Assembly: GCF_001989615.1 (NCBI RefSeq) | Contig: NZ_CP019067.1 | Coordinates: forward strand, 3,100,001-3,164,000 | Direction: 5' to 3' | Length of the DNA stretch: 64,000 bases | Source: Halorientalis sp. IM1011 | GTDB lineage: Archaea > Halobacteriota > Halobacteria > Halobacteriales > Haloarculaceae | Shown here: positions 11,803 to 23,314 of the stretch, one piece after another | Position numbering within the stretch: position 1 is the first letter of the stretch | How the letters are laid out: the number at the start of each line of letters is the position of its first letter | The notes under the pieces: model-generated | Database searches by the model: none | The model's input: only the letters and a program-made list of their open reading frames with translations | What the model was told of the DNA's origin: nothing | Made by a program: the position numbers and the translations under genes

Positions 11803-11947
11803 CGCGACAGGCTCTTACCGGCCGGACGTTTACCTCCAGCCGCGTGCCTTTAGTCCCCGCCCGAGCACACCCGTCTGGGCGCGATGACCGTGCGGAGAAC
11901 CCGGGCACGCGACAGACGACTGGCGGCCGCTAGCCGCCTCGCAGTTC

Positions 11948-12069
11948 GGAGGCTCTAGCGAGCCTCCCCGCGTTCGCGGCTCACGCCGCTCGCGTATTCG
12001 GTGGCCCTTCGGGCCACCCACTCGACGGCTACCGCCGTCTCGCAGTTCGAGGACGCCGAAAGCGTCCTC
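11948..12069. repeat. Array of five stem-loops between core genome and island
   Basis: Stems: 11948-11955/11960-11967 (8 bp), 11976-11980/11985-11989 (5 bp), 12000-12007/12011-12018 (8 bp, loop TTC), 12024-12029/12034-12039 (6 bp) and 12049-12056/12062-12069 (8 bp, loop CGAAA). The array is related in style and partly in sequence (GGTGGCC...GGCCACC followed by CTCG) to that at 6111-6255. The whole 11803-12128 gap has no credible gene. Confidence 0.65.
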
Positions 12070-12128
12070 CACCCGGCACGAGGGTTTCCCGACTGACAGG
12101 GCACACCGCCCCGGATGATGTCGGTCGT

Positions 12129-12255
12129 TAGTGTTCCGGGTGTACATTTCTAGCAGTTACAGATACTATTCTCAGATAATTCATAGCGACCGCGTTCCCT
12201 GGTGTGGCGTGTTCAACGTTCAGCACGTTGCGATTGCTGCATACAGGGCGCGAAT
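12129..12255. repeat. 127-bp direct repeat, copy A
   Basis: By my alignment this matches 19657-19783 over 127 bases with about seven mismatches and no gaps. The first 18 bases (TAGTGTTCCGGGTGTACA) are also the right end of the short repeat at 18801 and 22617. Inside is an imperfect palindrome centred on AACGTT. The copy sits at the left edge of the accessory island. Confidence 0.85.
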
Positions 12256-12314
12256 CTCGCATGGAGTTGCCATCCGATCACGGGTGGTTGGGTCGCTCAG
12301 TACGGCTTGCATAC

Positions 12315-12584
12315 TTAACGGTGTGATTTGATTTTGATTACCGGGTCTCCGTTTTTGTCGGCAGTGATAGTCGCAGTCGTCGAATCCGCCTCAAACTGGA
12401 GTGTCATTTTGAGATTGTTTTCCTGAAAGAGCCCGTCGAGAGCATCTGTATTAATATCTTCACTGATGCGCCATTGTTGCTCGAGTATGTCCTCGTTGTG
12501 AGCCTCTGCAACTGCCGATACGACCGCGATGCTCAATGGTTCATCTTCGTCCTGCTCGTAGATGAACTCCTGTTTGTGTCCCAC
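12315..12584 (-). CDS. HalOD1 domain protein
   Basis: This 89-residue protein is essentially one HalOD1 output domain: PLSIAVVSAVAEAHNEDI, TDALDGLF, a central beta hairpin (KMTLQFEADSTTATITADKN) and a short tail. HalOD1 is a haloarchaeal domain often attached to sensor proteins and also found alone; its molecular role is not established. It reads toward the copy-A repeat. A TATA-like run (ccattattt, read on the minus strand) lies just upstream at 12588-12596. Confidence 0.8.
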   Translation of the reverse strand: MGHKQEFIYEQDEDEPLSIAVVSAVAEAHNEDILEQQWRISEDINTDALDGLFQENNLKMTLQFEADSTTATITADKNGDPVIKIKSHR

Positions 12585-12845
12585 ACCATTATTTGGACAG
12601 CCAACGGAATATCAGCTATTGCCAATATGTGCCACGGTAGTCACCTACTGCCGTCAGCTTTTGACGATTCCCTGAAGACGGAACTGGAAAGCCCCGATCG
12701 GTTCACCTCGTGGCGCTGATTACCTACTCTCTGTAGTCAGCACGAGAGATTCCGCTCAGAACACGGTGGCGGGGTGTCGCTCACTTCCTGGCTTTTTGCC
12801 GGGTCTGCAATACATTCGAGATGCTCGAAGCCCAATGGCCTCCAA

Positions 12846-13379
12846 ATGCAGTCCATCCTTGAGACTCTCGAACCCAACGTTCCCTACCGCGTGAGAACGC
12901 GGCTCGGTCCCGTGATTACCCGACTCGGGCGAACTCTCGGTGAGCCCGAGTACCGCCTCCGTGATACCGAATACGTCGGCACTGTCCAGCAACCGCTGGA
13001 CGAGTTCACGGAAACACTCCGGAAACACGGGTTCGAGTGGGACCCGCTCGCGTGGTATCACCAGCCGGCAGTTGGCTCGGAGCCAAACGGTAGCTGGACG
13101 TATCGTCGGTCTCTGCTGGCTGACAGACAGATCCACGTCATCCTCATCGCCCACTCGCCGGAGTACATCGACGTGTTCGCCCACATGGAGTACAGTTGGC
13201 TGCGACACCGGATCAAACACCTCCGACAGGTCGGCATCGAGCGGGAAGCCGGTCGTAGCACGATGCGGCAATGGATCGAGAGTCACGGCATAGACGTCGA
13301 TGTCAACTCGCGTCGCCGGCGACGGGTCAGAGACGCGGTAAACGACCTCCGCAAGTACCTCGTGTCAATCAGTCAGTAG
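12846..13379 (+). CDS. Hypothetical protein, island gene
   Basis: The 177-residue protein is basic and arginine-rich for a haloarchaeon, with RYRLRDTEYVGTV-like and WTYRRSLLADRQIHVI segments, and a helical C-terminus (RRRRRVRDAVNDLRKYL). It looks globular, without membrane segments or a motif I recognise. Start 12846 begins the first acidic/helical block; upstream in-frame codons look non-coding. A 33-codon reading frame begins one base after its stop. Confidence 0.6.
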   Translation: MQSILETLEPNVPYRVRTRLGPVITRLGRTLGEPEYRLRDTEYVGTVQQPLDEFTETLRKHGFEWDPLAWYHQPAVGSEPNGSWTYRRSLLADRQIHVILIAHSPEYIDVFAHMEYSWLRHRIKHLRQVGIEREAGRSTMRQWIESHGIDVDVNSRRRRRVRDAVNDLRKYLVSISQ

Positions 13380-13380
13380 C

Positions 13381-13482
13381 GTGGATTCGATCCAACTCTT
13401 CGAAGAGGAGTGGCGAGTTGTGCCGCACCCGGTGTTTTCCGGGATTCAGCACGCCGTCCGATTCCCGTCATCTATGCGATAG
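13381..13482 (+). CDS. Possible 33-residue ORF or gene fragment
   Basis: A GTG-initiated frame one base after the previous stop encodes a peptide starting VDSIQLFEEEWRVVPHPVF and ending SSMR. Third positions are GC-rich as in real genes, and it could be translationally coupled. It may equally be the surviving N-terminal piece of a longer gene. No family recognised. Confidence 0.3.
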   Translation: MDSIQLFEEEWRVVPHPVFSGIQHAVRFPSSMR

Positions 13483-13502
13483 TTCGGCATGGCCACTTGT
13501 CA

Positions 13503-14312
13503 CTACTCCCCGCCCCTTACGACGTGGCCGTACTTCAATAGGGCAACGAACACAACCCCGCCGACCGCGTTTCCAATCGTGGCTAACGCGAGGAAGGATA
13601 CGTAGTCCATCACGGATATCTGAGGTGATAGAAAAACGCCGAATAGCACCTCAACGTTACCGGCAATCGAATGGGGGAGGTGGAGGAGACCGATAACACC
13701 GGTGACAATAAAGATGATAATGAGACGGCTCGTCGTCTCTTGAGCAGCGGTAACCAGCCACGCTAGCAGTCCCATCAGCCACCCCGCAAGCACGCCAGCG
13801 ACGAATAGCCACGTGAAACCGTGGGTAACGAGTGAGAGACCAATCGTTTCGAAGGCTTCCGGCGAGGCAACACCGAGGTCGGGTAGCAGCGTGACGATGA
13901 GTGCGACGAACGCCGCACCACCGACGATATTACCGACGTAGACCAGGCCCCAGAGACGGCCGAGTTCCGCGAGTGACGCTCGTCCGTCGAGGACCGGCAT
14001 CACGGCCACGGTCGTATGTTCGGTGAACAGTTCTAACCGTCCCAAGATGACGAACATGAATCCGACGGCGTAGACACCCGCAAGTAGCAACTCCGTCCCG
14101 AGATCACCATACCCACCCGGTGAGAGGGTGAGTATCACCGCCATCAACAATGGACCAAACCCAATATCCAGACCAGCGGACAATCCAGAAAGTAACAATC
14201 CGTTCGTCTCGCGGTTGATTTCGTGGAACCCGCTTTCGATCAACGAATCGAGGACCTCTGTAACTCCGGTTGGATCAACCGTGTCCGTGCTTTCCGGCCC
14301 TGATTCTTTCAC
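13503..14312 (-). CDS. Formate/nitrite transporter family channel
   Basis: The 269-residue integral membrane protein has six predicted transmembrane segments and an FNT-family layout: an N-terminal cytosolic helix with the ESGFHEI segment, LLSGLSAGLDIGFGPLLMAV for TM1, GRLELFTEHTTVAVMPVL after TM2, and GNIVGGAAFVALI and IGNAVGGVVFVALL repeats. FNT channels pass formate, nitrite or hydrosulfide as pentamers. Haloarchaeal relatives often lack associated formate or nitrite enzymes, as here, so the anion is unknown. Confidence 0.85.
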   Translation of the reverse strand: MKESGPESTDTVDPTGVTEVLDSLIESGFHEINRETNGLLLSGLSAGLDIGFGPLLMAVILTLSPGGYGDLGTELLLAGVYAVGFMFVILGRLELFTEHTTVAVMPVLDGRASLAELGRLWGLVYVGNIVGGAAFVALIVTLLPDLGVASPEAFETIGLSLVTHGFTWLFVAGVLAGWLMGLLAWLVTAAQETTSRLIIIFIVTGVIGLLHLPHSIAGNVEVLFGVFLSPQISVMDYVSFLALATIGNAVGGVVFVALLKYGHVVRGGE

Positions 14313-14369
14313 ACACTTTCACTGTGTCCGTCGCTGCAAAAGCATAGTGACCGAAGCGAATCAGACTCA

Positions 14370-14483
14370 TCAACAGGTGTGGCATGGCAGGGTCGTCGAC
14401 CCGACCTGGATCACACTCCCGGTTGCGATCCCGAGAAGAACCCAGCCCGCCTGGCCGAACGCGAGTCGGTCGAATTGTCCCAT
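14370..14483 (-). CDS. Possible 37-residue single-TM ORF
   Basis: An ATG frame upstream of the FNT gene on the same strand encodes MGQFDRLAFGQ followed by a hydrophobic stretch (WVLLGIATGSVIQVG) and a short tail. The composition suits a tiny membrane protein or the remnant of one. It could be co-transcribed with the transporter 57 bases downstream. No homologue recognised; otherwise the 14313-14611 gap is empty. Confidence 0.3.
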   Translation of the reverse strand: MGQFDRLAFGQAGWVLLGIATGSVIQVGSTTLPCHTC

Positions 14484-14611
14484 CGACCTGCATCGACCGC
14501 TGGCTCGTCGAGTCCGACGGTGGCAAAGACCCAGTTTCACTAGCTGTTAGCGGGCGTCCCTGCCAGCAGTCTCATCATCGTGGGGGCCGACTGTTCGCAT
14601 GGGTGTTGATT

Positions 14612-14797
14612 ATGCCCCAGCAATGGGAGTACAAGACGCTCGAACCGCCGAAGGGATTGACCAAACGAGAAACGGTCGATCCGACGGACGAACTCAACCG
14701 CCTCGGCACCGAAGGGTGGGAACTGACGGAGACGATTAGCTACGATGGTGGCGGCACGAAGCTCCTCGTGTTCAAACGGCCTGTCCCCCATGAGTGA
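14612..14797 (+). CDS. DUF4177 protein, copy 1
   Basis: This 61-residue protein has the DUF4177 pattern: QWEYKTLEPP, LNRLGTEGWELTET and GGGTKLLVFKRP. Such small beta-rich proteins are widespread with no established function. It ends eight bases inside the following membrane-protein gene, so the two are translationally coupled. A homologous pair lies in inverted orientation at 15858-17077. Confidence 0.75.
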   Translation: MPQQWEYKTLEPPKGLTKRETVDPTDELNRLGTEGWELTETISYDGGGTKLLVFKRPVPHE

Positions 14798-15785
14798 CCT
14801 TACCACTGAGAACACGCTGCGTGAGCGGACGGACGTCAACAAGTACTATTTCTGGGTACTGCTCGGGGCTAATCGGTGGGCCGTCGCCGGTAGTCTCGCC
14901 TGCCTGATCTTCCTCGTATTCATGCTCTGGGGCGTGTTGAAACCAGTGTCGCTCCAGACGACTATGCAGTCAAGCGACATGGTCGAGACGGTGTTCGCCG
15001 GCCTCGTCGGGGCGATCATCACGGGGACGACGCTGGTCGTGACGATCAATCAGCTCGTGCTCTCCCAGGAGATCGGCTCGCTCGGAAGCCAGCGGAGCCG
15101 GATGGATACGACGATGGATTTCCGCCAGAACACTGACGACCTCCTCGGTACGGTCACGCCGGCCGACCCTGCGGCGTACCTCCTCGCGCTCGTCGAAACG
15201 AGTGAACACCGAGCGAGGACACTTCGAGACACACTCGACGACTCCGGACACAAGGACTTCCAAGAGACGGTAGACGAATACGTCGATGACCTGTTGAAGA
15301 ACGCCGACCACGCTCGCGACCACCTCGAAGGAGCTGATTTCGGGACGTTCGACGTGTTGTCACCGGCACTCGATTACAACTACGACCGAAAGATGTACGA
15401 CGTTCGCCGGCTCGGGATGGCGCACGAGGCCGACCTGACGGACGAAGAGCGGGACGCATTCAGAGCTCTCCTGGAGGCGCTCACGATGTACGGGCCCGTC
15501 CGCGAGTACATCAAGGACCTCTATATCCAGTGGGCACTGGTGAAACTCTCGCGAGCCATCCTGTACGCAGCAGTGATCTCGCTCACCGTCGCCGGTGGTA
15601 TGGTCGTCTTCGTCGACCCGACGACGTTTCCCGGCACCTTCCTCGGGATCGAGCGCATTCTCTGGGTCGTCAGCGCCGCCTTCGCCATCTCGGCATTGCC
15701 GTTTCTACTGTTTACCGCCTACATCCTGCGACTCGCCACGATCGCGAAGCAAACCCTCTCGATGGGGCCGCTCGTCCTCAGCTGA
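14790..15785 (+). CDS. Four-TM membrane protein of the DUF4177-linked module, copy 1
   Basis: The 331-residue protein has a cytosolic N-terminus (LRERTDVNKYYFWVLLGANR), TM1 at about 35-55, TM2 at about 73-93 with the conserved run GTTLVVTINQLVLSQE, a helical soluble domain of about 150 residues, and two C-terminal membrane segments (about 250-275 and 290-315) ending IAKQTLSMGPLVL. It is a paralogue of the gene at 15858. Function unknown; the topology recalls small channel-like proteins, but no family was identified. Confidence 0.75.
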   Translation: MSDLTTENTLRERTDVNKYYFWVLLGANRWAVAGSLACLIFLVFMLWGVLKPVSLQTTMQSSDMVETVFAGLVGAIITGTTLVVTINQLVLSQEIGSLGSQRSRMDTTMDFRQNTDDLLGTVTPADPAAYLLALVETSEHRARTLRDTLDDSGHKDFQETVDEYVDDLLKNADHARDHLEGADFGTFDVLSPALDYNYDRKMYDVRRLGMAHEADLTDEERDAFRALLEALTMYGPVREYIKDLYIQWALVKLSRAILYAAVISLTVAGGMVVFVDPTTFPGTFLGIERILWVVSAAFAISALPFLLFTAYILRLATIAKQTLSMGPLVLS

Positions 15786-15857
15786 CCGGACTCCTGTGTC
15801 CCATCGGAAGGGTGGCACGAACGGAGCGAGCGACGCTCGTCGCGCAGACCGTGACCC

Positions 15858-16874
15858 CTAGCGCTGTGAGTCGCGCAGGATTAACGGTTCGATGGCGAGC
15901 GTCCGTTTCGCTATGGTGACGACGCGAAGGACGTACGAGACGAACAGCATGAACGGAACGAGCGTCACCGCAAACGCACCGCCCACGACGAGGATCATGT
16001 GATCGAGACCGAGTGTGCTTCCCGGGAACGTCCTCGCATCGACGACTCCGACCATGATACCCGCAACGGCCAATGCCGGGACTGCAGCATAGAGTATCAT
16101 CTGAGACAAGTCGATGAGTGCCCACTGGAAGTACAGCGTCTTGACGTGTTCGCGCGCCGGACCGAACAGAGACAGCGCTGTTTTGAGGTCGTCAAGCAAG
16201 CCGCGTTCTTCCTCATCGAGACTCCCCTCGTAGTCGTTCGCGAGACGTTCGACTTGGAAGATTTTCCAGCTATAATTGAAATTCAGTGCGGCGAATAACA
16301 CATCGAACGAGCCGAACTGCGCATCCTCAAGTTGGTCGCGGACCAGGTCAGCGTTCCCAGTGACGCTGTCAGCGAATTCATCGACCTCTTTTCGGAGGTC
16401 CGCGTCCTCGTTCTTATCAATAGACTCTCGAAGAGCCGTCGCCCGTTGTGCCGTGATTCCGATGATCTGCCGCAGGAATTCGGATGGATCGGCAGGACTC
16501 GGAGATCCGATCAATTCTTCAGTAAAGTCCCGGGCATCCATCGAACTGGACATACGCTCGCGTTGATCACCGAGCGGGCCGTTCTCCTGGGAGAGGACGA
16601 GCTGACCGATCGTGACGACGAGTGTCGTCCCAGTCACGATGACCGTGATCATCGTCGAGAACATCGTGTCGATCATGTCGCCGGACTCGATTTGCCGTGC
16701 GAACGGTGGTTCGAGGACAGCGACGGCGACGACGAATGCGACGAATACGGCACCGGTCAGGACGCTGGCGACGAGAAGGCGGTTCGCGCGCAGCAGCAAC
16801 CAGAGTTTAATCCGACTCTCGCCCGAGCGCTCACGCATGGTGTTTGCCGTACCGATGTCGCTCCCGTCAGTCAT
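15858..16874 (-). CDS. Four-TM membrane protein of the DUF4177-linked module, copy 2
   Basis: The 338-residue paralogue of the protein at 14790 shares LLLRANR, GTTLVVTIGQLVLSQE, the loop GDQRERM, the central FGSFDVLFAALNFNYSWK segment, GPAREHVKTLYFQWALI and the C-terminal IAKRTLAIEPLIL. Its ATG overlaps the stop of the DUF4177 gene upstream (16871-16874). The two membrane-protein genes face each other 72 bases apart with no gene between. Confidence 0.75.
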   Translation of the reverse strand: MTDGSDIGTANTMRERSGESRIKLWLLLRANRLLVASVLTGAVFVAFVVAVAVLEPPFARQIESGDMIDTMFSTMITVIVTGTTLVVTIGQLVLSQENGPLGDQRERMSSSMDARDFTEELIGSPSPADPSEFLRQIIGITAQRATALRESIDKNEDADLRKEVDEFADSVTGNADLVRDQLEDAQFGSFDVLFAALNFNYSWKIFQVERLANDYEGSLDEEERGLLDDLKTALSLFGPAREHVKTLYFQWALIDLSQMILYAAVPALAVAGIMVGVVDARTFPGSTLGLDHMILVVGGAFAVTLVPFMLFVSYVLRVVTIAKRTLAIEPLILRDSQR

Positions 16875-17077
16875 ACTGACTCATCCGATTGGGCAGGTCG
16901 CTTGAAAACGAGGTACTTGGTGCCGCCTCCCTCGTAGTCGATCGTCTCCACGAACTCCCAGCCCTCTGTACCGAGTTGATTCAACTCTGCTTTCGGATCC
17001 TCTGCTTCTTTTTGGGTCTCATCGCGCGGCGGGCGAAGCGTCTCGTACTCCCAGCGGATCGCCTCTGATTCGGACAT
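16871..17077 (-). CDS. DUF4177 protein, copy 2
   Basis: This 68-residue protein has the same pattern as the copy at 14612 (IRWEYETLRPP, LNQLGTEGWEFVETIDYEGGG, LVFKRP). ATGA coupling to the membrane-protein gene repeats the arrangement of the first copy. Start 17077 is the first ATG giving the family N-terminus. Confidence 0.75.
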   Translation of the reverse strand: MSESEAIRWEYETLRPPRDETQKEAEDPKAELNQLGTEGWEFVETIDYEGGGTKYLVFKRPAQSDESV

Positions 17078-17150
17078 CACTCCTAGTAGGGACTGCAGCC
17101 CTCTATATTCCGTTCCACTCCCGAGATGGTACAGTGTACGGAGCCCGGAT

Positions 17151-17870
17151 TCATCGGTCCGTCTCTTTCCATTCGTCCGTATCTCCTTCACGGAATTCAC
17201 CTTTGGCATGACGCTCGTGGGGCCAGAAGGTGACGCCCAGCAGTACGACGTAGAACACACCCACGACGGTAACCACAGCAATCCCAGGGATACGGGCGAT
17301 TCCAGCGGTTGTCAGCCAGTCTTGGCGCCCCGTGAACGCAGTGATTCTGAAGAGCCACGCAACCAAGAGGACACCGAGCAGAGCGAGGTACACCCGCCGG
17401 AGCCGGTTTGCGAGTGCTTCATATACCGAGACTTTCAGCGTCGGCTTCCGATAGTCCCTGCTCAGTTCCGCTCGCCAGTCGTGACTTTCGACACCCTCGG
17501 ACGGATCGAGGGCGTTTGCAAACAGGTTCTCTTGGATGAGTCGAGCACGAGAGCGAAAGACGTCGTAGTCTCGGTATCGCCGTGCTTCGATGTTCAGAAA
17601 GACAGTGACGACGACGATCCCGACCAGCAAGATATAGTGTGGGTTATCGGGACTCGAAAAGGCCCACGTCAGGATTGCTGCCATCAGCGTCACCGCCCAC
17701 GTCGTCGTCTGGTCGAGGCGCTGGCGCCACGTCCCCACTCGGTCTATCTCTCCGCGATAGGCGTGGGCCATCACGGAACCGAGCCCCGTACTGTCGTCAA
17801 CCATTTCGCGGCCAATCTCCCGTTGGTCTGGTGCTGTTGGGTCGAACTCGTCGCTCCTCGAATCGGTCAT
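17151..17870 (-). CDS. DUF2270 family membrane protein
   Basis: The 239-residue protein matches the archaeal DUF2270 family: MAHAYRGEIDRVGTWRQRLD before the first membrane segment, then FLNIEARRYRDYDVFRSRARL, an amphipathic middle, and two C-terminal membrane segments. About four membrane spans in all. Function unknown; members are frequent in haloarchaea. A TATA-like gcttattg (minus strand, about 17895-17902) lies 25-32 bases upstream, predicting a leaderless mRNA. Confidence 0.8.
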   Translation of the reverse strand: MTDSRSDEFDPTAPDQREIGREMVDDSTGLGSVMAHAYRGEIDRVGTWRQRLDQTTTWAVTLMAAILTWAFSSPDNPHYILLVGIVVVTVFLNIEARRYRDYDVFRSRARLIQENLFANALDPSEGVESHDWRAELSRDYRKPTLKVSVYEALANRLRRVYLALLGVLLVAWLFRITAFTGRQDWLTTAGIARIPGIAVVTVVGVFYVVLLGVTFWPHERHAKGEFREGDTDEWKETDR

Positions 17871-18180
17871 AGAGGAGAAACAGTTCCTCGCTCAATAAGC
17901 GGCGACGGTGACGGCGTGAGAGACACACCAAATTGAGTACTATCACGAGTATCGTGGCATTTATATCGCATTTATCGCGGGGCCATCGAGAAATAAACAG
18001 GCGTACCGAACAGCTTGTTCGATCAAAAACGCCTGAATCGGACGCTCACTCAGCGCTGCACTCAACCTCTGTATCCATCACCGCAGCATATCCATATCGA
18101 ATCTTTGAAAGTCCGTTTACACCTTCGATCAGCGGTGGTCCACTCACGAGTTGTCCGGATCAGCCACTGGACACGCCAGA

Positions 18181-18188
18181 TTTATTCG
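18181..18188 (+). promoter_or_regulatory. Predicted TATA box of hicBA
   Basis: tttattcg, preceded by cgccaga, lies 23-30 bases before the hicB ATG and predicts a leaderless transcript. The rest of the 17871-18210 gap is AT-richer than average and contains no gene. Confidence 0.5.
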
Positions 18189-18210
18189 ACCACCAGACCT
18201 CTTCCTATGT

Positions 18211-18492
18211 ATGAGCACCGACACCGACGACTCCGGCGACGACGAGCCGGGGCCGATCAACATCTCGCTATCGCTGGGCGAGAGCGGCGACGTGTGGGTC
18301 GCTCGCGACGAGGACACCGGTGTTACCTCGCAGGGTCAGACTCGACAGGCCGCACTCGAAAACCTCGACGAGGCCGTCGCCGGCTATCACGGTGCCGGAG
18401 AGTCACCGAGTGACGACGACCTCCGGGAGATGGGGATCGACCCCGAGCAGAACACCGCTGGATCGCTGGACGAGTCGGACATCTTCGAGTAA
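18211..18492 (+). CDS. hicB: HicB-like antitoxin
   Basis: This 93-residue protein has a partial-RNase-H-like HicB N-terminal domain: INISLSLGESGDVWVARDEDTGV, then SQGQTRQAALENLDEAVAGYHG. The C-terminus is acidic and lacks an obvious HTH, as in short haloarchaeal HicB forms. It lies four bases upstream of a HicA reading frame, the usual antitoxin-toxin operon. HicB normally blocks the HicA mRNA interferase and represses the operon. Confidence 0.8.
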   Translation: MSTDTDDSGDDEPGPINISLSLGESGDVWVARDEDTGVTSQGQTRQAALENLDEAVAGYHGAGESPSDDDLREMGIDPEQNTAGSLDESDIFE

Positions 18493-18496
18493 CCGA

Positions 18497-18750
18497 ATGG
18501 CGCGGGGACCGTTTTCCGGAGGGAGGTCGTGAAGGTGATGGTCAACAGTGGAATCTACGAATGGGACCGGACGAACGGCGACCACGCGATTCTCCGCTGG
18601 GAACCGCCAGCGGATCACGATTCGGACGCGCGGACGGTTCCAGTGCCGCTGCACGACGAGGTCGATACGGGGACGTTGCGGAGCATCGCCGAGCAGGCCG
18701 GCGCGAAAGATTTCGACGAATTCTGTGCCCGGATCGACCGAAATAGCTAG
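18497..18750 (+). pseudogene. hicA: Frameshifted hicA toxin gene
   Basis: ATG at 18497 starts MARGPFSG, the expected HicA N-terminus, but the frame reaches TGA at 18530-18532. The rest of HicA (EVVKVMVNSGIYEWDRTNGD, HAILRWEPP, VPLHDEVDTGTLRSIAEQAG) continues in another frame from about 18523. One extra base near 18520 (TCC GGA nGG GAG GTC) would restore an intact protein of about 84 residues reading FSG-R-EVVKVM. Alternatives are a truncated protein from GTG 18529 or ATG 18538, lacking the first helix, or a sequencing error. Confidence 0.75.
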
Positions 18751-18800
18751 TCTGTGGCAGTCTTCCCGGAGGTTCTCTCTACTATCGCACAGAGACGAAG

Positions 18801-18840
18801 CTACTAGTAGAAACTCGCCCGGTAGTGTTCCGGGTGTACA
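18801..18840. repeat. 40-bp island repeat, copy B
   Basis: Starts with the perfect palindrome CTACTAGTAG and continues with CTCGCCCGGTAGTG and TTCCGGGTGTACA. It matches 19635-19674 and 22617-22656 almost exactly in the same orientation. It lies 50 bases after the hicA stop and before the Doc gene. CCCGG and CCGGG within it can pair. Confidence 0.85.
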
Positions 18841-18881
18841 TTTTCGAACTGAGTACCAGTGACGGTCCCGCGAATTCCCGC

Positions 18882-18898
18882 GTGGAAAGCTACATTTT
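18882..18898 (+). promoter_or_regulatory. Predicted promoter of the Doc-like gene
   Basis: BRE-like tggaaagc followed by tacatttt, 24-31 bases before ATG 18922. An interrupted repeat cgcg-aattcc-cgcg at 18869-18882 lies just upstream and could be an operator. Confidence 0.45.
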
Positions 18899-18921
18899 CT
18901 CCCCTCCCGTTGGCGCAGACG

Positions 18922-19410
18922 ATGAGTGATCGGCTCTGGTATCCGTCCGCCGAGGACGTCGTCGATATCCACGACGATATCGTCTCCGAATACCCGGATA
19001 CCAGCCCTGGCGTCCGGAACCGTGGTGACGTCGAGTTCACACTTGAGTACGTCGAGGAGGGAAGTTTCGGATCGGTTCCCGAAACGGTTCACGAGAAGGC
19101 GTTTCACCTGCTTCGGCTTCTCGTCGCCAACCATCCGTTCGTGGACGGAAACAAGCGCACCGCACTCAACGTGGTGGTCGTATTCTATCTGCTCAATGGC
19201 TTTCGCTTCGATTACGACGATGAGGTCAGAGAGATACTAGCGAAACTCGGCACTGACGAGAAGGCCGTCGATGAAAACGACGTGCTCGAATATTTCCAAG
19301 CACACACGACAGAAGTCGATTTGAATGAAGTGGTCGGACGATGGCGAGGCGACCTCGTCGAGTATGGACTTGATCAGCTATCCGATGAATCATCGGACCC
19401 GAACGATTAA
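18922..19410 (+). CDS. doc: Doc-like Fic-domain toxin
   Basis: The 162-residue protein carries the Fic motif in Doc form, HPFVDGNKRTALN at residues 71-83. Lysine replaces the second glycine of classical Fic AMP-transferases, as in phage P1 Doc, which phosphorylates the elongation factor EF-Tu. The surrounding helices (AFHLLRLLVAN; VVVFYLLNGF) fit the fold. No Phd-type antitoxin precedes it; instead copy B of the repeat does. A 46-residue ORF follows. Confidence 0.8.
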   Translation: MSDRLWYPSAEDVVDIHDDIVSEYPDTSPGVRNRGDVEFTLEYVEEGSFGSVPETVHEKAFHLLRLLVANHPFVDGNKRTALNVVVVFYLLNGFRFDYDDEVREILAKLGTDEKAVDENDVLEYFQAHTTEVDLNEVVGRWRGDLVEYGLDQLSDESSDPND

Positions 19411-19435
19411 CGGGATTCGTGGTCAAGGGGTATGC

Positions 19436-19576
19436 ATGGCGACGGAAGAGAAGACGGGCGAACAAACGCCACTCGACGACGTGATGGAGGATATCCGTCG
19501 AGAGCTCGTATTGCGTGTCGCCAAGGCTGACCGGGACGACCATCGCAATATCTACGACGCCCTCGAACACGAATAG
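19436..19576 (+). CDS. 46-residue ORF, candidate Doc antitoxin
   Basis: ATG at 19436 opens a short acidic helical protein (TPLDDVMEDIRRELVLRVAK, then DDHRNIYDALEHE) 25 bases after the doc stop. Small charged helical antitoxins can neutralise Fic proteins, and the position suggests a reversed toxin-antitoxin order, but no family was recognised. Confidence 0.5.
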   Translation: MATEEKTGEQTPLDDVMEDIRRELVLRVAKADRDDHRNIYDALEHE

Positions 19577-19620
19577 CGTTATCACGCCCCTCGATTCGCG
19601 ATTCGCAGAACCGAGAGTTT

Positions 19621-19674
19621 CACTTCCACCGGGCCTACTAGTAGACTCTCGCCCGGTAGTGTTCCGGGTGTACA
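19621..19674. repeat. Island repeat, copy C (54-bp long form)
   Basis: The 40-bp repeat (19635-19674) is preceded by 14 bases also present before copy D. ACCGGGC (19628-19634) and GCCCGGT (19651-19657) form a 7-bp stem whose loop contains CTACTAGTAG. An alternative stem pairs CCCGG (19652-19656) with CCGGG (19664-19668). It lies 44 bases after the 46-residue ORF and runs directly into the 127-bp repeat. Confidence 0.85.
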
Positions 19675-19783
19675 CTTCTAGAAGGTATACATATTATTCT
19701 CAGATAATTCATAGCGACCGCGTTCCCTGGTGTGGCGTGTTCAACGTTCAACACGTTGCGATTGCTGCATACAGGGCGCGAAT
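19657..19783. repeat. 127-bp direct repeat, copy C
   Basis: About 94% identical to 12129-12255 by eye, same orientation, same length. Contains a near-perfect palindrome around 19740-19757 (GTGTTCAACGTTCAACAC). The two copies bracket 7.4 kb of the island. The rest of the gap to 19915 has no visible gene. Confidence 0.85.
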
Positions 19784-19915
19784 ACAGTAACGGACCTACT
19801 TTCAATTCAGGTCAGTCGTATCGGTCAGTACAGAGAACGAAGACGACGAACAATACCTATTCGTACATTAGGGCTGAGTCAGGTCGAACGAAGGGGAAGT
19901 CGATCCGATATTCTG

Positions 19916-20323
19916 TCACTCGCAGGCCTCGTATGTCCCGACCGACTTCAGGAGATCTTGTTCCAGTTCACCGCCAACAAACCGGACGTGCCCCGTCTCA
20001 CCCTCGTAGTCGATTATTCGAGCCTCCTCCAGTTTTGGAAGATGCGTATGGTGAAGTGCGATTCGGACGCGTTGTTGGTGTTCTTCTGACTCCAGTCTCG
20101 GGTCTTCGTCCCGAACCCGGTCTGCAACGCGATCTACGAGCACATCGTATTCCAGTGTCTTCCCGGAAGCGTTGTCCAACGCCGTGAGGGTGGCGCGTCG
20201 GTGTTCGTCCGCTACTGCCGACAGAATCGTATCGGGGGAGATCGACCCCTCACGGCCCGAAGAACCGGTATCCTCATCGATTGACTGTATCTCACGCGTT
20301 CCCAGCTCTCGACTCTCGTCCAT
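19916..20323 (-). CDS. Winged-helix protein (DUF7344-like)
   Basis: This 135-residue protein has an acidic leader and a winged-helix domain of the haloarchaeal type: ISPDTILSAVADEHRRATLT, LDNASGKTLEYDVLVDRVAD and VRIALHHTHLPKLEEARIIDY, with GHVRFVGG forming the wing. Likely a DNA-binding regulator. I chose ATG 20323; another ATG at 20344 would add seven residues. It is followed upstream by the Bat-like gene at 20382 on the same strand. Confidence 0.75.
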   Translation of the reverse strand: MDESRELGTREIQSIDEDTGSSGREGSISPDTILSAVADEHRRATLTALDNASGKTLEYDVLVDRVADRVRDEDPRLESEEHQQRVRIALHHTHLPKLEEARIIDYEGETGHVRFVGGELEQDLLKSVGTYEACE

Positions 20324-20362
20324 ACTCACATAGCGTCGTCCCATCTGCCTGGCTCTGTCCCA

Positions 20363-20373
20363 TGGTGCATAAT
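20363..20373. promoter_or_regulatory. Candidate operator TGGTGCATAAT
   Basis: One of three copies of the pattern TGGTG-Y-A-Y-M-AT near the island regulators (others at 21095-21105 and, inverted, 21189-21199). It lies 40-50 bases upstream of the winged-helix gene start. Confidence 0.35.
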
Positions 20374-20381
20374 GGGCCCAG

Positions 20382-21047
20382 TCAGTCCATTTTCGCTGCT
20401 GACTCGGGCGTGAGAAGTGCGTATCTCCCGAACGTCCCAATGCCACGACGCAGTCGCTCAGTCACTGCTTGATCGGAAATTCCGAGTTCGTCAGCTAACT
20501 CTGCGGTCGTACACCCTCGTGGAATGTCGTAGTATCCCCTTCGAATGGCAAGCGTCAACGCTTCTCGTTGGGACTCACTCAGGCCGTACCACGGACCGGC
20601 CTCAGGGTCCGTCGGATTATATATGCGGGTTAGCTCCAGAGAGATGTGCGCGGCCTCACAGCAGTCCTGGCACTGACTCAATGCCTCGCGATCTGTGAAC
20701 CGTATCTCGAAATTCCACCCTTCCGACGATCCAGTCGCACCCAGTATCTGCCCGTCGTGTTCCATGATGCACTGAAAAAGGTGGTCCTGGCTCGCATCCC
20801 AGTCGAGCCTGATCAGCGTCCTGTCGTCGAACACGTCCACCTCTGTGACGCTGTTGACAGTTGGATAGCGTTCGACGGTCTCGAGAAAGCCGTTTTCGAC
20901 CGGTTCGTAGACCCAGAAGAGCGGCACGGTCACGTCCCCACTCGGGACGAGCGTTTCCAGTTCGATGGCCGAGGCTTGCTCTAGACTGAGGATTTGCCCG
21001 AGTTCAAAAGCATCGGATGGGATGCGAACCTCCGTTATCACACTCAT
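20382..21047 (-). CDS. Bat-like HTH_10 regulator, left member of a divergent pair
   Basis: This 221-residue protein has an N-terminal region of about 155 residues found before HTH_10 domains (FELGQILSLEQASAIELETLVPSGD and an FWVYEP segment), then HTH_10 from about residue 160 (GLSESQREALTLAIRRGYYD, TTAELADELGISDQAVTERL). It is clearly paralogous in layout to the divergent gene at 21238. No sensory domain is attached, so it may respond to a small ligand in the N-terminal domain or to an interacting protein. Confidence 0.82.
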   Translation of the reverse strand: MSVITEVRIPSDAFELGQILSLEQASAIELETLVPSGDVTVPLFWVYEPVENGFLETVERYPTVNSVTEVDVFDDRTLIRLDWDASQDHLFQCIMEHDGQILGATGSSEGWNFEIRFTDREALSQCQDCCEAAHISLELTRIYNPTDPEAGPWYGLSESQREALTLAIRRGYYDIPRGCTTAELADELGISDQAVTERLRRGIGTFGRYALLTPESAAKMD

Positions 21048-21092
21048 ACTCGCTTGTAAGACTAGATTGCCCGGTTGGACAAAAGGAGATAA

Positions 21093-21106
21093 CATGGTGC
21101 ACCATG
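21093..21106. promoter_or_regulatory. Perfect 14-bp palindrome between divergent regulators
   Basis: CATGGTGCACCATG is its own reverse complement and lies in the 190-base intergenic region between the two Bat-like genes, 46 bases upstream of the left one. Related half-sites occur at 20363 and 21189. It is a good candidate autoregulatory operator. Confidence 0.5.
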
Positions 21107-21188
21107 CCCATCCGGGTGCCAGAGGTACACCCCGCTCGCAGCGCACACCATGTCGGCCAGCAACGGTGCGTCGACTCGTCTCGAAGCC

Positions 21189-21199
21189 ATGATACACCA
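21189..21199. promoter_or_regulatory. Inverted copy of the candidate operator
   Basis: ATGATACACCA, the complement of TGGTGTATCAT, lies about 39-49 bases before the start of the right-hand Bat-like gene and matches the 21095 site at most positions. Confidence 0.35.
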
Positions 21200-21237
21200 C
21201 CCATGCCGGTTATTCGCCTGCCAGACGAAGGCTCCCC

Positions 21238-21882
21238 ATGGCGACTGTGATGGAATTTACGAGTCCGGTAGGGGAGTTTCCGCTGGGAAGTGTGTTCGAG
21301 AACCTGCCGGGTGTGACCGTCGAACTGGAGCGATTGATTCCACACGAGACGCTGATTATCCCGTACTTCTGGGTGCGTGATGTAGAAACGGAGGATATCG
21401 AAGCTGCGTTCGAGGCACATTCCGGCGTGAGCAACATTCGAGTCGTCGATAGCGTCGAAGACGAGTATCTCATGCGTGCCGAGTGGGAGTCAGAGTACTT
21501 CGGCATCCTGAGTGCGCTTGCCAAGGCCAACGTCGTCGTGCTTTCCGGGATTGGAACGAAAGAGGAATGGCGGTTCGAGGTACGCGGTGAGAGTCAGGAG
21601 GCGCTCGCCGAGTTTCGGGAGTACTGCCAGGAAACCGACATTCCGATTGCGATCACCGCCGTCCACGCCATGCTTCCGATCCAGGGAGAGGGCTACGAGT
21701 TAACCGAGACCCAACGCGAGGCGCTGGTACTAGCCTACGAACGGGGGTACTTCGACAGCCCACGCGAGGTGTCGCTCGAAGAGATCGCCGACGAGCTCGG
21801 CATCACCCAGCAATCGCTCTCGTCACGCCTTCGACGCGGGCATCGACGCCTCATTAGAGCGACGCTCAGTAGTTCGGAGTGA
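21238..21882 (+). CDS. Bat-like HTH_10 regulator, right member of a divergent pair
   Basis: The 214-residue protein has the same two-part layout as its divergent neighbour: N-terminal FPLGSVFENLPGVTVELERL, FWVRDVE and EWRFEVRGESQEALAEF, then C-terminal HTH_10 (LTETQREALVLAYERGYFDS; LEEIADELGITQQSLSSRLR). Probably a transcription factor. It is the first plus-strand gene of a short group ending with the HalOD1 pair at 21967-22498. Confidence 0.82.
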   Translation: MATVMEFTSPVGEFPLGSVFENLPGVTVELERLIPHETLIIPYFWVRDVETEDIEAAFEAHSGVSNIRVVDSVEDEYLMRAEWESEYFGILSALAKANVVVLSGIGTKEEWRFEVRGESQEALAEFREYCQETDIPIAITAVHAMLPIQGEGYELTETQREALVLAYERGYFDSPREVSLEEIADELGITQQSLSSRLRRGHRRLIRATLSSSE

Positions 21883-21966
21883 TCGTCCGGAGAGCTCCCC
21901 TCTATTAAACCCTCTGTATAATCAGTATACTTATTGAACCGACTCAGACGGCTAGATTCGGGTGAA

Positions 21967-22323
21967 ATGGACGCAACGGTATCTGGAGTGGGAGTCGAAG
22001 CGGTCGAGCACTCTCGGGAATTTGGGGCTGTTCGCACGCAGTTCGATCAGGAGAAGACACCTGCGAGTATGGCTGTTATCGCAACGCTGGCAGATGTAAG
22101 AGACACTGATCCGGTTGATCTGACCCCGCTCCATTCCACTGTTGACCCCGACGCGTTAGATGCGCTCGTCCGAGTTCGCAACGGGACGAACGGAGACATT
22201 CACGTTACGTTCACGCACCAGGGGCACACAATAACCGTACACAGCTACGGTGTGATCACTATCACACCGGAACACGAACCCACAGTGGAGAACCACGAAC
22301 CGGGGCGGGAAGATGACGTCTGA
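21967..22323 (+). CDS. HalOD1 domain protein
   Basis: The 118-residue protein has a HalOD1 domain in its C-terminal two thirds: SMAVIATLADVRDTDPVDLT, LHSTVDPDALDALV, and the beta hairpin GDIHVTFTHQGHTITVHSYG. Its last codons overlap the next gene by 11 bases. The HalOD1 gene at 12315 lies near the opposite edge of the island. Confidence 0.8.
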   Translation: MDATVSGVGVEAVEHSREFGAVRTQFDQEKTPASMAVIATLADVRDTDPVDLTPLHSTVDPDALDALVRVRNGTNGDIHVTFTHQGHTITVHSYGVITITPEHEPTVENHEPGREDDV

Positions 22324-22498
22324 GGAGACCTCGCTTGCGTCGAAAGACGAATTAAACGCGGAGCTGAAAGCCCTCCTTCGCAGGGCCTACGAGAGTGGAA
22401 TCGATGTGGAAGGCGGATTCGAATGTCGGAATGGGGCCGAACATCCTGACTGGGACGTGATCGTCACCGAAGTCGAAAAGAACGAGCATTCGGAGTGA
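22313..22498 (+). CDS. Small partner protein of HalOD1
   Basis: The 61-residue protein has the pattern ELKALLRRAYESGIDVEGGF, ECRNGAEHPDWDVIVTEV, seen next to or near HalOD1 genes in other haloarchaea (recalled, not checked). It overlaps the HalOD1 gene, so the two are translationally coupled. Function unknown. Confidence 0.7.
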   Translation: MTSEETSLASKDELNAELKALLRRAYESGIDVEGGFECRNGAEHPDWDVIVTEVEKNEHSE

Positions 22499-22602
22499 AC
22501 GACGGGGTACGGCGAGGAATGAAATCACCCTCTGTATGCAGCGAGGCACCCATGTCATCTACTGGTAATATCCAACGGGTCCGCCTCCCCATATGCCGTT
22601 TC

Positions 22603-22656
22603 CACTTCCACCGGGCCTACTGGTAGAAACTCGCCCGGTAGTGTTCCGGGTGTACA
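22603..22656. repeat. Island repeat, copy D (54-bp long form)
   Basis: Matches copy C over 54 bases; the loop palindrome is CTACTGGTAG here. Stem ACCGGGC (22610-22616) pairs with GCCCGGT (22633-22639). It lies 104 bases after the HalOD1 partner stop and 28 bases before the end of the convergent core gene, marking the right edge of the island. Confidence 0.85.
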
Positions 22657-22684
22657 TGTCCCGTCTAGCCGAGCAACGGCACTC

Positions 22685-23314
22685 CTAGGCGATGTCCCGG
22701 GACGTGTCGATGGAGACCTCCTCCACGAGGTCGAGTTTGATCACGTCGGAGGGTGCCCGGCCGCCCCGGAATTTCGGGATGGCCAGCCGGTTCTCCACGT
22801 CGTCGCCGTTGGTCCCGGTCTCCAGCTGGAAGACCACGTCGGCGAAGTGTTCTGTGGAGTCCCGGAGGCGTGGAATCTCGTGGCCGGTCAGACAATGAAG
22901 GACCGCCAACGACCCGGTGTTGAAGATGTGGTTTTGCAGGTCGTTCATGAAGTTGCGGAACCGGGATGGCGGTTCCTGGGTCTCCAGAACGTTCACCGGG
23001 TCGATGATGAGGTTCGAGGTCTCCGGGAGCGCGGAGACGAGTTTGCCGGCGTTGTCCAGCGGGGCCTCCCCCGGGATGTGCCGGACGGTCGGATCGCCGG
23101 TCTCGGTCGGCGAGTTGCTGATACTGTCGGAGACGGCTTCTTCGGAGCGGTCGAGAGAGAGGTACAGCGTGCCCCGCGTCGCGGTGAGTTCGTAGAGAAA
23201 TAGCTCCGCCTGACTGGCCGGATCGGCACAGAGCGCGACGATACTGCCGGCCGGGATCCCGCCGTTGAGCTTCCGGTCGAGAACGTCGATCCCGGTCCGG
23301 AGCCGATTCTCCAT
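22685..23314 (-). CDS. RecA-superfamily (GvpD/RAD55-like) ATPase-like protein with degenerate Walker A
   Basis: The 209-residue protein has a RecA-fold layout seen in haloarchaeal GvpD-like proteins: GIDVLDRKLNGGIPAGSIVA at the start, a Walker B-like strand LIIDPVNVLE, and the C-terminal DVVFQLETG...VENRLAIPKFRGG. The P-loop position reads ADPASQAELFLYEL, without the GKT, so ATP hydrolysis is doubtful. A TATA-like ATTTAAT lies at about 23343-23350 on the minus strand. Confidence 0.7.
   Translation of the reverse strand: MENRLRTGIDVLDRKLNGGIPAGSIVALCADPASQAELFLYELTATRGTLYLSLDRSEEAVSDSISNSPTETGDPTVRHIPGEAPLDNAGKLVSALPETSNLIIDPVNVLETQEPPSRFRNFMNDLQNHIFNTGSLAVLHCLTGHEIPRLRDSTEHFADVVFQLETGTNGDDVENRLAIPKFRGGRAPSDVIKLDLVEEVSIDTSRDIA

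Follow-up and report, generated by a model that had tools for sequence, protein, structure and literature searches.

The window, a 64,000-nucleotide stretch of the nearly complete 3.78-Mb genome of the haloarchaeon Halorientalis sp. IM1011, carries two tail-to-tail gene pairs (positions 14612-17077), each encoding a small soluble protein of the sP36/DUF4177 type and a membrane protein with four transmembrane segments (four-TM protein). Based on homologue surveys, gene order and comparison of phylogenies, it is proposed that the sP36-like proteins act as dedicated cytosolic regulators of their four-TM partners, and a probability of about 60% is assigned to this regulator-partner statement as a whole. 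The figure for any particular substrate of the four-TM protein would be far lower. Small soluble regulators that act together with a membrane protein are of a known kind; new here is the unnamed partner family. Coordinates of the locus and its surroundings are compiled in Table 1.

Table 1. Features of the locus and the surrounding island (positions in the window).
Feature	Position	Strand	Evidence or remark
Low-GC island, both pairs inside	about 11900-22800		54-62% GC vs 67-70% outside
135-bp direct repeat, copy 1, near left end of low-GC island	12121-12255	+	repeat search
sA, pair A, sP36/DUF4177-family small soluble protein, 61 aa	14612-14797	+	Pfam DUF4177 3.2e-6; NCBIfam Sp36_fam 1.9e-14
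mA, A clade, four-TM membrane protein, 331 aa	14790-15785	+	outside all Pfam/NCBIfam families
Spacer, 72 bp, between convergent stop codons of mA and mB	15786-15857		RNA fold test
mB, B clade, four-TM membrane protein, 338 aa	15858-16874	-	AlphaFold2 pLDDT 78, pTM 0.68
sB, pair B, sP36/DUF4177-family small soluble protein, 68 aa	16871-17077	-	NCBIfam Sp36_fam 1.7e-16; AlphaFold2 pLDDT 80
DUF2270 membrane protein	17151-17870	-	Pfam 4.3e-74
DUF7387 protein, precedes HicA	18151-18492		within low-GC island
HicA toxin, behind DUF7387 protein	18529-18750		Pfam 1.7e-10
135-bp repeat, third copy, partial	18801-18843		repeat search
Fic/Doc protein, adjoins HicA	18859-19410		Pfam 1.2e-10
135-bp direct repeat, copy 2, 93% identical to copy 1	19649-19783	+	repeat search

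Re-reading of the open reading frames confirmed the coordinates, gene order, convergence and 72-bp gap reported for the two pairs in the first-pass annotation, and the motifs quoted there (LGTEGWE; GGGTK..LVFKRP; GTTLVVTI.QLVLSQE) were found as given. The accompanying claim that both pairs possess the same start/stop overlap had to be corrected, since the end of sA and the start of mA share 8 nt (ATGAGTGA), compared with 4 nt (ATGA) for mB and sB. Overlaps of 4 and 8 nt represent the two standard classes across the whole family. The membrane proteins mA and mB are 47% identical. RNA folding of the spacer between them was ordinary on both strands (z 0.37 and -0.02), and a terminator at this position was dismissed, the fold being no better than that of shuffled sequence.

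Both small proteins were assigned to the sP36 family. Against the NCBIfam Sp36 model (NF053529), sA and sB scored 53.3 and 59.9 bits, respectively, and thus above the curated cut-off of 50 bits. Moreover, both agree with the family in size and solubility, lacking any transmembrane helix. For Pfam DUF4177 (PF13783; cut-off 25 bits), a score above the threshold was obtained for sA (27.7 bits) and one just under it for sB (23.7 bits). DUF4177 is a broad family without assigned function, for which sP36 represents the better-fitting and studied subfamily in the case of sA and sB. The AlphaFold2 model of sB displays a beta-alpha-beta-beta arrangement composed of three strands and one short helix (residues 29-37); Foldseek returned no match for the small protein at E<=0.001. 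Relative to Methanosarcina sP36, the haloarchaeal small proteins constitute a subtype featuring extra residues.

In order to evaluate how tightly the two genes are associated, sP36 homologues were surveyed in 292 halobacterial genomes, yielding a list of 150 matches down to about E=3e-10. Coordinates placed a membrane gene on the same strand no more than 400 nt downstream for 112 of them, and reading of the regions around the other 38 revealed such a gene directly downstream, again on the same strand, in 23 cases. Accordingly, 135 of the 150 listed homologues reside directly upstream of the membrane gene. Among the 15 exceptions, 12 match the small proteins of the window with low scores (34-51 bits, compared with more than 80 bits for most coupled ones) and look like a divergent subtype; within the subtype proper, leaving these 12 out, 135 of 138 listed proteins are coupled. 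Almost all genomes with a listed sP36 match also encode the membrane family (131/132; Fisher p=3e-4, phylogeny ignored).

In the loci read, 145 non-redundant membrane genes, the window's two among them, are preceded by an sP36 gene, and the pairing therefore exceeds chance. Of these 145 pairs, 128 show a start/stop overlap of 4 or 8 nt, a count for which the start codon nearest to the stop was taken and which is thus somewhat biased toward overlap. An overlap of 8 nt was observed in all A-clade pairs (22/22), and pairs outside this clade show 4 nt (80 pairs) or 8 nt (26 pairs). Furthermore, distances among the small proteins correlate with those among the membrane proteins (r=0.80, compared with at most 0.11 under permutation), and without exception (143/143) a small protein and its nearest relative share the A or not-A clade. 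Inter-protein covariation, for which the effective number of sequences (53) was too small to make it usable as evidence, placed 73 of the 100 top pairs in cytosolic columns, compared with 61% of all columns.

The reverse dependence is different. Among 70 full-length membrane copies from 27 evenly drawn halobacterial genomes, 12 are preceded by an sP36 gene and 58 are not, and for the membrane family as a whole the small protein is therefore unnecessary. The window's own genome possesses five four-TM copies, three of which lack an upstream small-protein gene. In the membrane tree, coupled copies are clustered in one large section (6 changes vs 28.2 after shuffling), within which a few losses are nested, among them 13 Halorubrum-type copies devoid of sP36. 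An obligate two-gene system was ruled out, the membrane gene mostly standing alone. The first-pass annotation had made its partnership hypothesis depend on whether either gene often occurs without the other, and the answer is no for the small protein and yes for the membrane protein. Adjacency, translational coupling and matched trees support, on comparative grounds, the functional partnership which it had proposed; adjacency is no proof of binding, and the complex that it also postulated is inferred. Two of the four members of a small clade (L239-L242) encode a divergently oriented sP36 at a distance of about 0.8 kb from the membrane gene, where it lies behind a lipoprotein-like gene without Pfam family (L239 2017-2704; L240 1963-2687), possibly representing a three-component version.

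The four-TM protein matched no Pfam or NCBIfam family. Four hydrophobic segments were recognized in both mA and mB, and the AlphaFold2 model of mB concurs, showing TM1 and TM2, a helical domain (residues about 100-250) and TM3 and TM4. Judged from the charge pattern, this domain of about 150 residues is taken to be cytosolic. TM2 carries a polar face composed of T81, T84, T88, Q91 and S95 (helical-moment p=0.0005), and no significant polar face was detected in TM1, TM3 or TM4 by the same test. Based on this topology and the amphipathic TM2 with its conserved Thr/Gln stripe, the four-TM protein most likely represents an oligomeric channel or transporter. Since no convincing structural match was obtained, the term channel is derived from topology and TM2.

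Among solved structures, no convincing relative of the membrane protein was found by sequence or fold. Foldseek gave no match for the mB monomer model, which is of moderate confidence, at E<=0.001, and a bestrophin-like pentameric channel, considered because of the topology, was set aside on this result. Matches to the designed repeat protein 7rdr (hmmsearch 1.3e-6, no single stretch passing) and to light-harvesting peptides have the appearance of coiled-coil or transmembrane-composition effects. Weak similarity to DUF2254 (PF10011; cut-off 28.8 bits) was observed for 14 of 71 membrane homologues (best E 0.0022), with the TM1-TM2 hairpin matched in the one alignment inspected. However, mA and mB gave no match, none of the homologues was observed to reach the cut-off, and hhalign against two haloarchaeal members yielded nothing; kinship was not adopted, and the relation may serve as a weak lead. 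The four-TM family was detected in 274 of the 292 sampled halobacterial genomes and, outside Halobacteria, in only one genome of the phylum sample. This amounts to about 94% of the halobacterial sample, for a family that carries neither name nor function.

Few archaeal small proteins have a known target, and sP36 of Methanosarcina mazei is one of them. It is a soluble hexamer of 61-aa subunits that relocates from the cytosol to the membrane after ammonium upshift and binds the ammonium transporter AmtB1 with a KD of 0.26 uM, letting GlnK1 bind and, as proposed, blocking transport (PMC10714827). From its conservation, the same authors carried the AmtB model over to haloarchaea (PMC10714827). 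The haloarchaeal proteins could accordingly regulate AmtB/GlnK as in M. mazei, with adjacency to the four-TM gene as a mere operon convenience, e.g., for co-expression under nitrogen limitation. Common family membership with M. mazei sP36 (PMC10714827) and the presence of AmtB in 277 of the 292 halobacterial genomes are in line with this explanation, which nevertheless appears improbable. Presence of sP36 shows no association with that of AmtB (Fisher p=0.79, phylogeny ignored), as opposed to its strong association with the four-TM family, and six of the 15 genomes without AmtB still carry sP36 among the matches listed. AmtB was hence not supported as the partner of pair-bound sP36. Moreover, AmtB or GlnK product names were absent from the annotated neighbourhoods read, and small proteins of the A and B types never exchange membrane partners, which is hard to reconcile with a single AmtB.

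In Methanosarcinaceae, none of the 30 sP36 loci read features an adjoining four-TM gene. Because sP36 is associated with the four-TM family rather than with AmtB in haloarchaea, and stands alone in Methanosarcinaceae, the haloarchaeal pair-bound protein most likely serves the four-TM protein, which it presumably binds. If most haloarchaeal sP36 relatives bind the unnamed membrane family, homology-based extension of the AmtB model to haloarchaea would be unsafe, and the about 140 partner-matched pairs would, if this holds true, represent a natural set for studying how one and the same small fold is fitted to membrane partners. The stand-alone haloarchaeal sP36/DUF4177 proteins of the divergent subtype, with no four-TM gene nearby (L200, L203, L206, L212-L215, L217-L219 and L221), are candidates for carrying an AmtB-type function.

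In comparison with the sP36-AmtB1 system (NF053529), the pairs described here likewise contain an archaeal small soluble protein of about 60 aa from this family, whose proposed target is a membrane protein. They differ in the partner, an unrelated four-TM family instead of an 11-TM ammonium transporter, in the adjacency and translational coupling of the genes, which the Methanosarcinaceae loci lack, and in the additional residues that the small protein carries before the helix. The operon of the PII protein GlnK and the ammonium channel AmtB likewise co-encodes a cytosolic oligomeric regulator with its membrane partner (PMC10714827); however, neither pair protein matches the PII or Amt families in Pfam or NCBIfam, and the analogy is confined to the way of working. 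The earlier statement that the pairs are not described as a system agrees with the literature searched, where no pairing of an sP36-like with a four-TM membrane protein was found, and does not extend to the small protein family, known from sP36-AmtB1.

According to the proposed regulator-partner mechanism, each pair would operate as one functional unit, with the overlapping start and stop codons keeping synthesis of the small protein in step with that of the membrane protein. The four-TM protein, with both termini and the helical domain facing the cytosol, would assemble into an oligomeric channel or transporter, to whose cytosolic face the small protein would bind in order to gate it on a metabolic or stress signal. 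This gating is modelled on M. mazei sP36 acting on AmtB1, which is unrelated to the four-TM family. A and B would be two insulated pairs that often move together on plasmids and genomic islands. A broader version, regarded as unlikely, would make sP36-family proteins general archaeal 'plug or gate' subunits paired with differing transporters, and the four-TM proteins a new class of gated ion channels, with A and B, each equipped with a private gating subunit, forming a two-channel unit for, e.g., osmotic or pH stress.

Within about 90 loci of coupled pairs, genes for DUF2270 proteins (25, window included), Bat-type HTH regulators (about 22) and HalOD1 proteins (14) were found, compared with 1, 0 and 0, respectively, in a small comparison set of 13 loci centred on uncoupled copies. 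DUF2270, the commonest tested neighbour, has often been transferred together with pair B (about 90% identity), and is considered an associate of the pair rather than an established member. These frequent neighbours, together with the large cytosolic helical domain, fit a different function, in which the four-TM protein would be a membrane scaffold or stress sensor (e.g., an anchor or a monitor of envelope integrity) and the sP36-like protein a sequestered effector freed on stress. Furthermore, one uncoupled four-TM paralogue of the window's genome adjoins a PspA/IM30 gene (L003 1483-3484), which suggests that the family is connected with membrane stress. A scaffold or sensor is nonetheless judged rather unlikely: the conserved polar stripe of TM2 suits a pore or an oligomer interface, and no DNA-binding or enzymatic domain was recognized in sA or sB by Pfam and NCBIfam searches.

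Both pairs are part of a low-GC island that is likely a laterally acquired, recombination-prone segment. Its 135-bp direct repeat has no further full copy anywhere in the genome. Relatives of pair B with about 86-92% protein identity occur across many families and on plasmids. Such strong lateral spread, the translational coupling and the HicA toxin and Fic genes on the same island would also be compatible with a selfish, addiction-like module spreading on plasmids and islands, in which a toxic membrane protein is held in check by the small one. This explanation is very improbable, however, since a toxin would forbid the orphan membrane copies that are common (58/70) and to which the 13 related Halorubrum copies belong. 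Moreover, no PADLOC anti-phage model matched sA, mA, mB or sB, and no PHROG match was significant. A viral origin was rejected as well, PHROG matches being weak and the viral contigs containing no relative.

The first-pass annotation had attached significance to the occurrence of two pairs and to their inverted layout. At 11 of 22 loci, an A-clade pair and a B-side pair are no more than about 5 kb apart, a proximity expected about 0.3% of the time for two loci placed at random in a 3.8-Mb genome. Of these 11 loci with both pairs intact, nine are tandem, with B before A, and two are convergent (the window and L202 in genome G122). In addition, two Natronosalvus plasmids carry a decayed A pair in convergent orientation to B, and further genomes contain either a decayed A pair in tandem or sA as its only remainder. 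Given the frequency of close A and B pairs, their low chance expectation and their mostly tandem order, the A+B association is recurrent and the inversion is not. The suggested two-pair unit hence holds as a recurrent dyad, and the convergent layout was discarded as a functional feature and is regarded as local.

Regarding insertion of the island, no clean empty site could be demonstrated in seven congeners, all of which possess the left-flank gene and have the right-flank homologue elsewhere. In one of the congeners, G496 (L301), this left-flank gene has a Fic homologue, spread over two frames, in its vicinity, which may point to an insertion hotspot. Finally, a gene of the formate/nitrite transporter family (13503-14312) directly adjoins pair A in the window, and a 94% identical gene of this family is also located close to pair B in Natribaculum breve.
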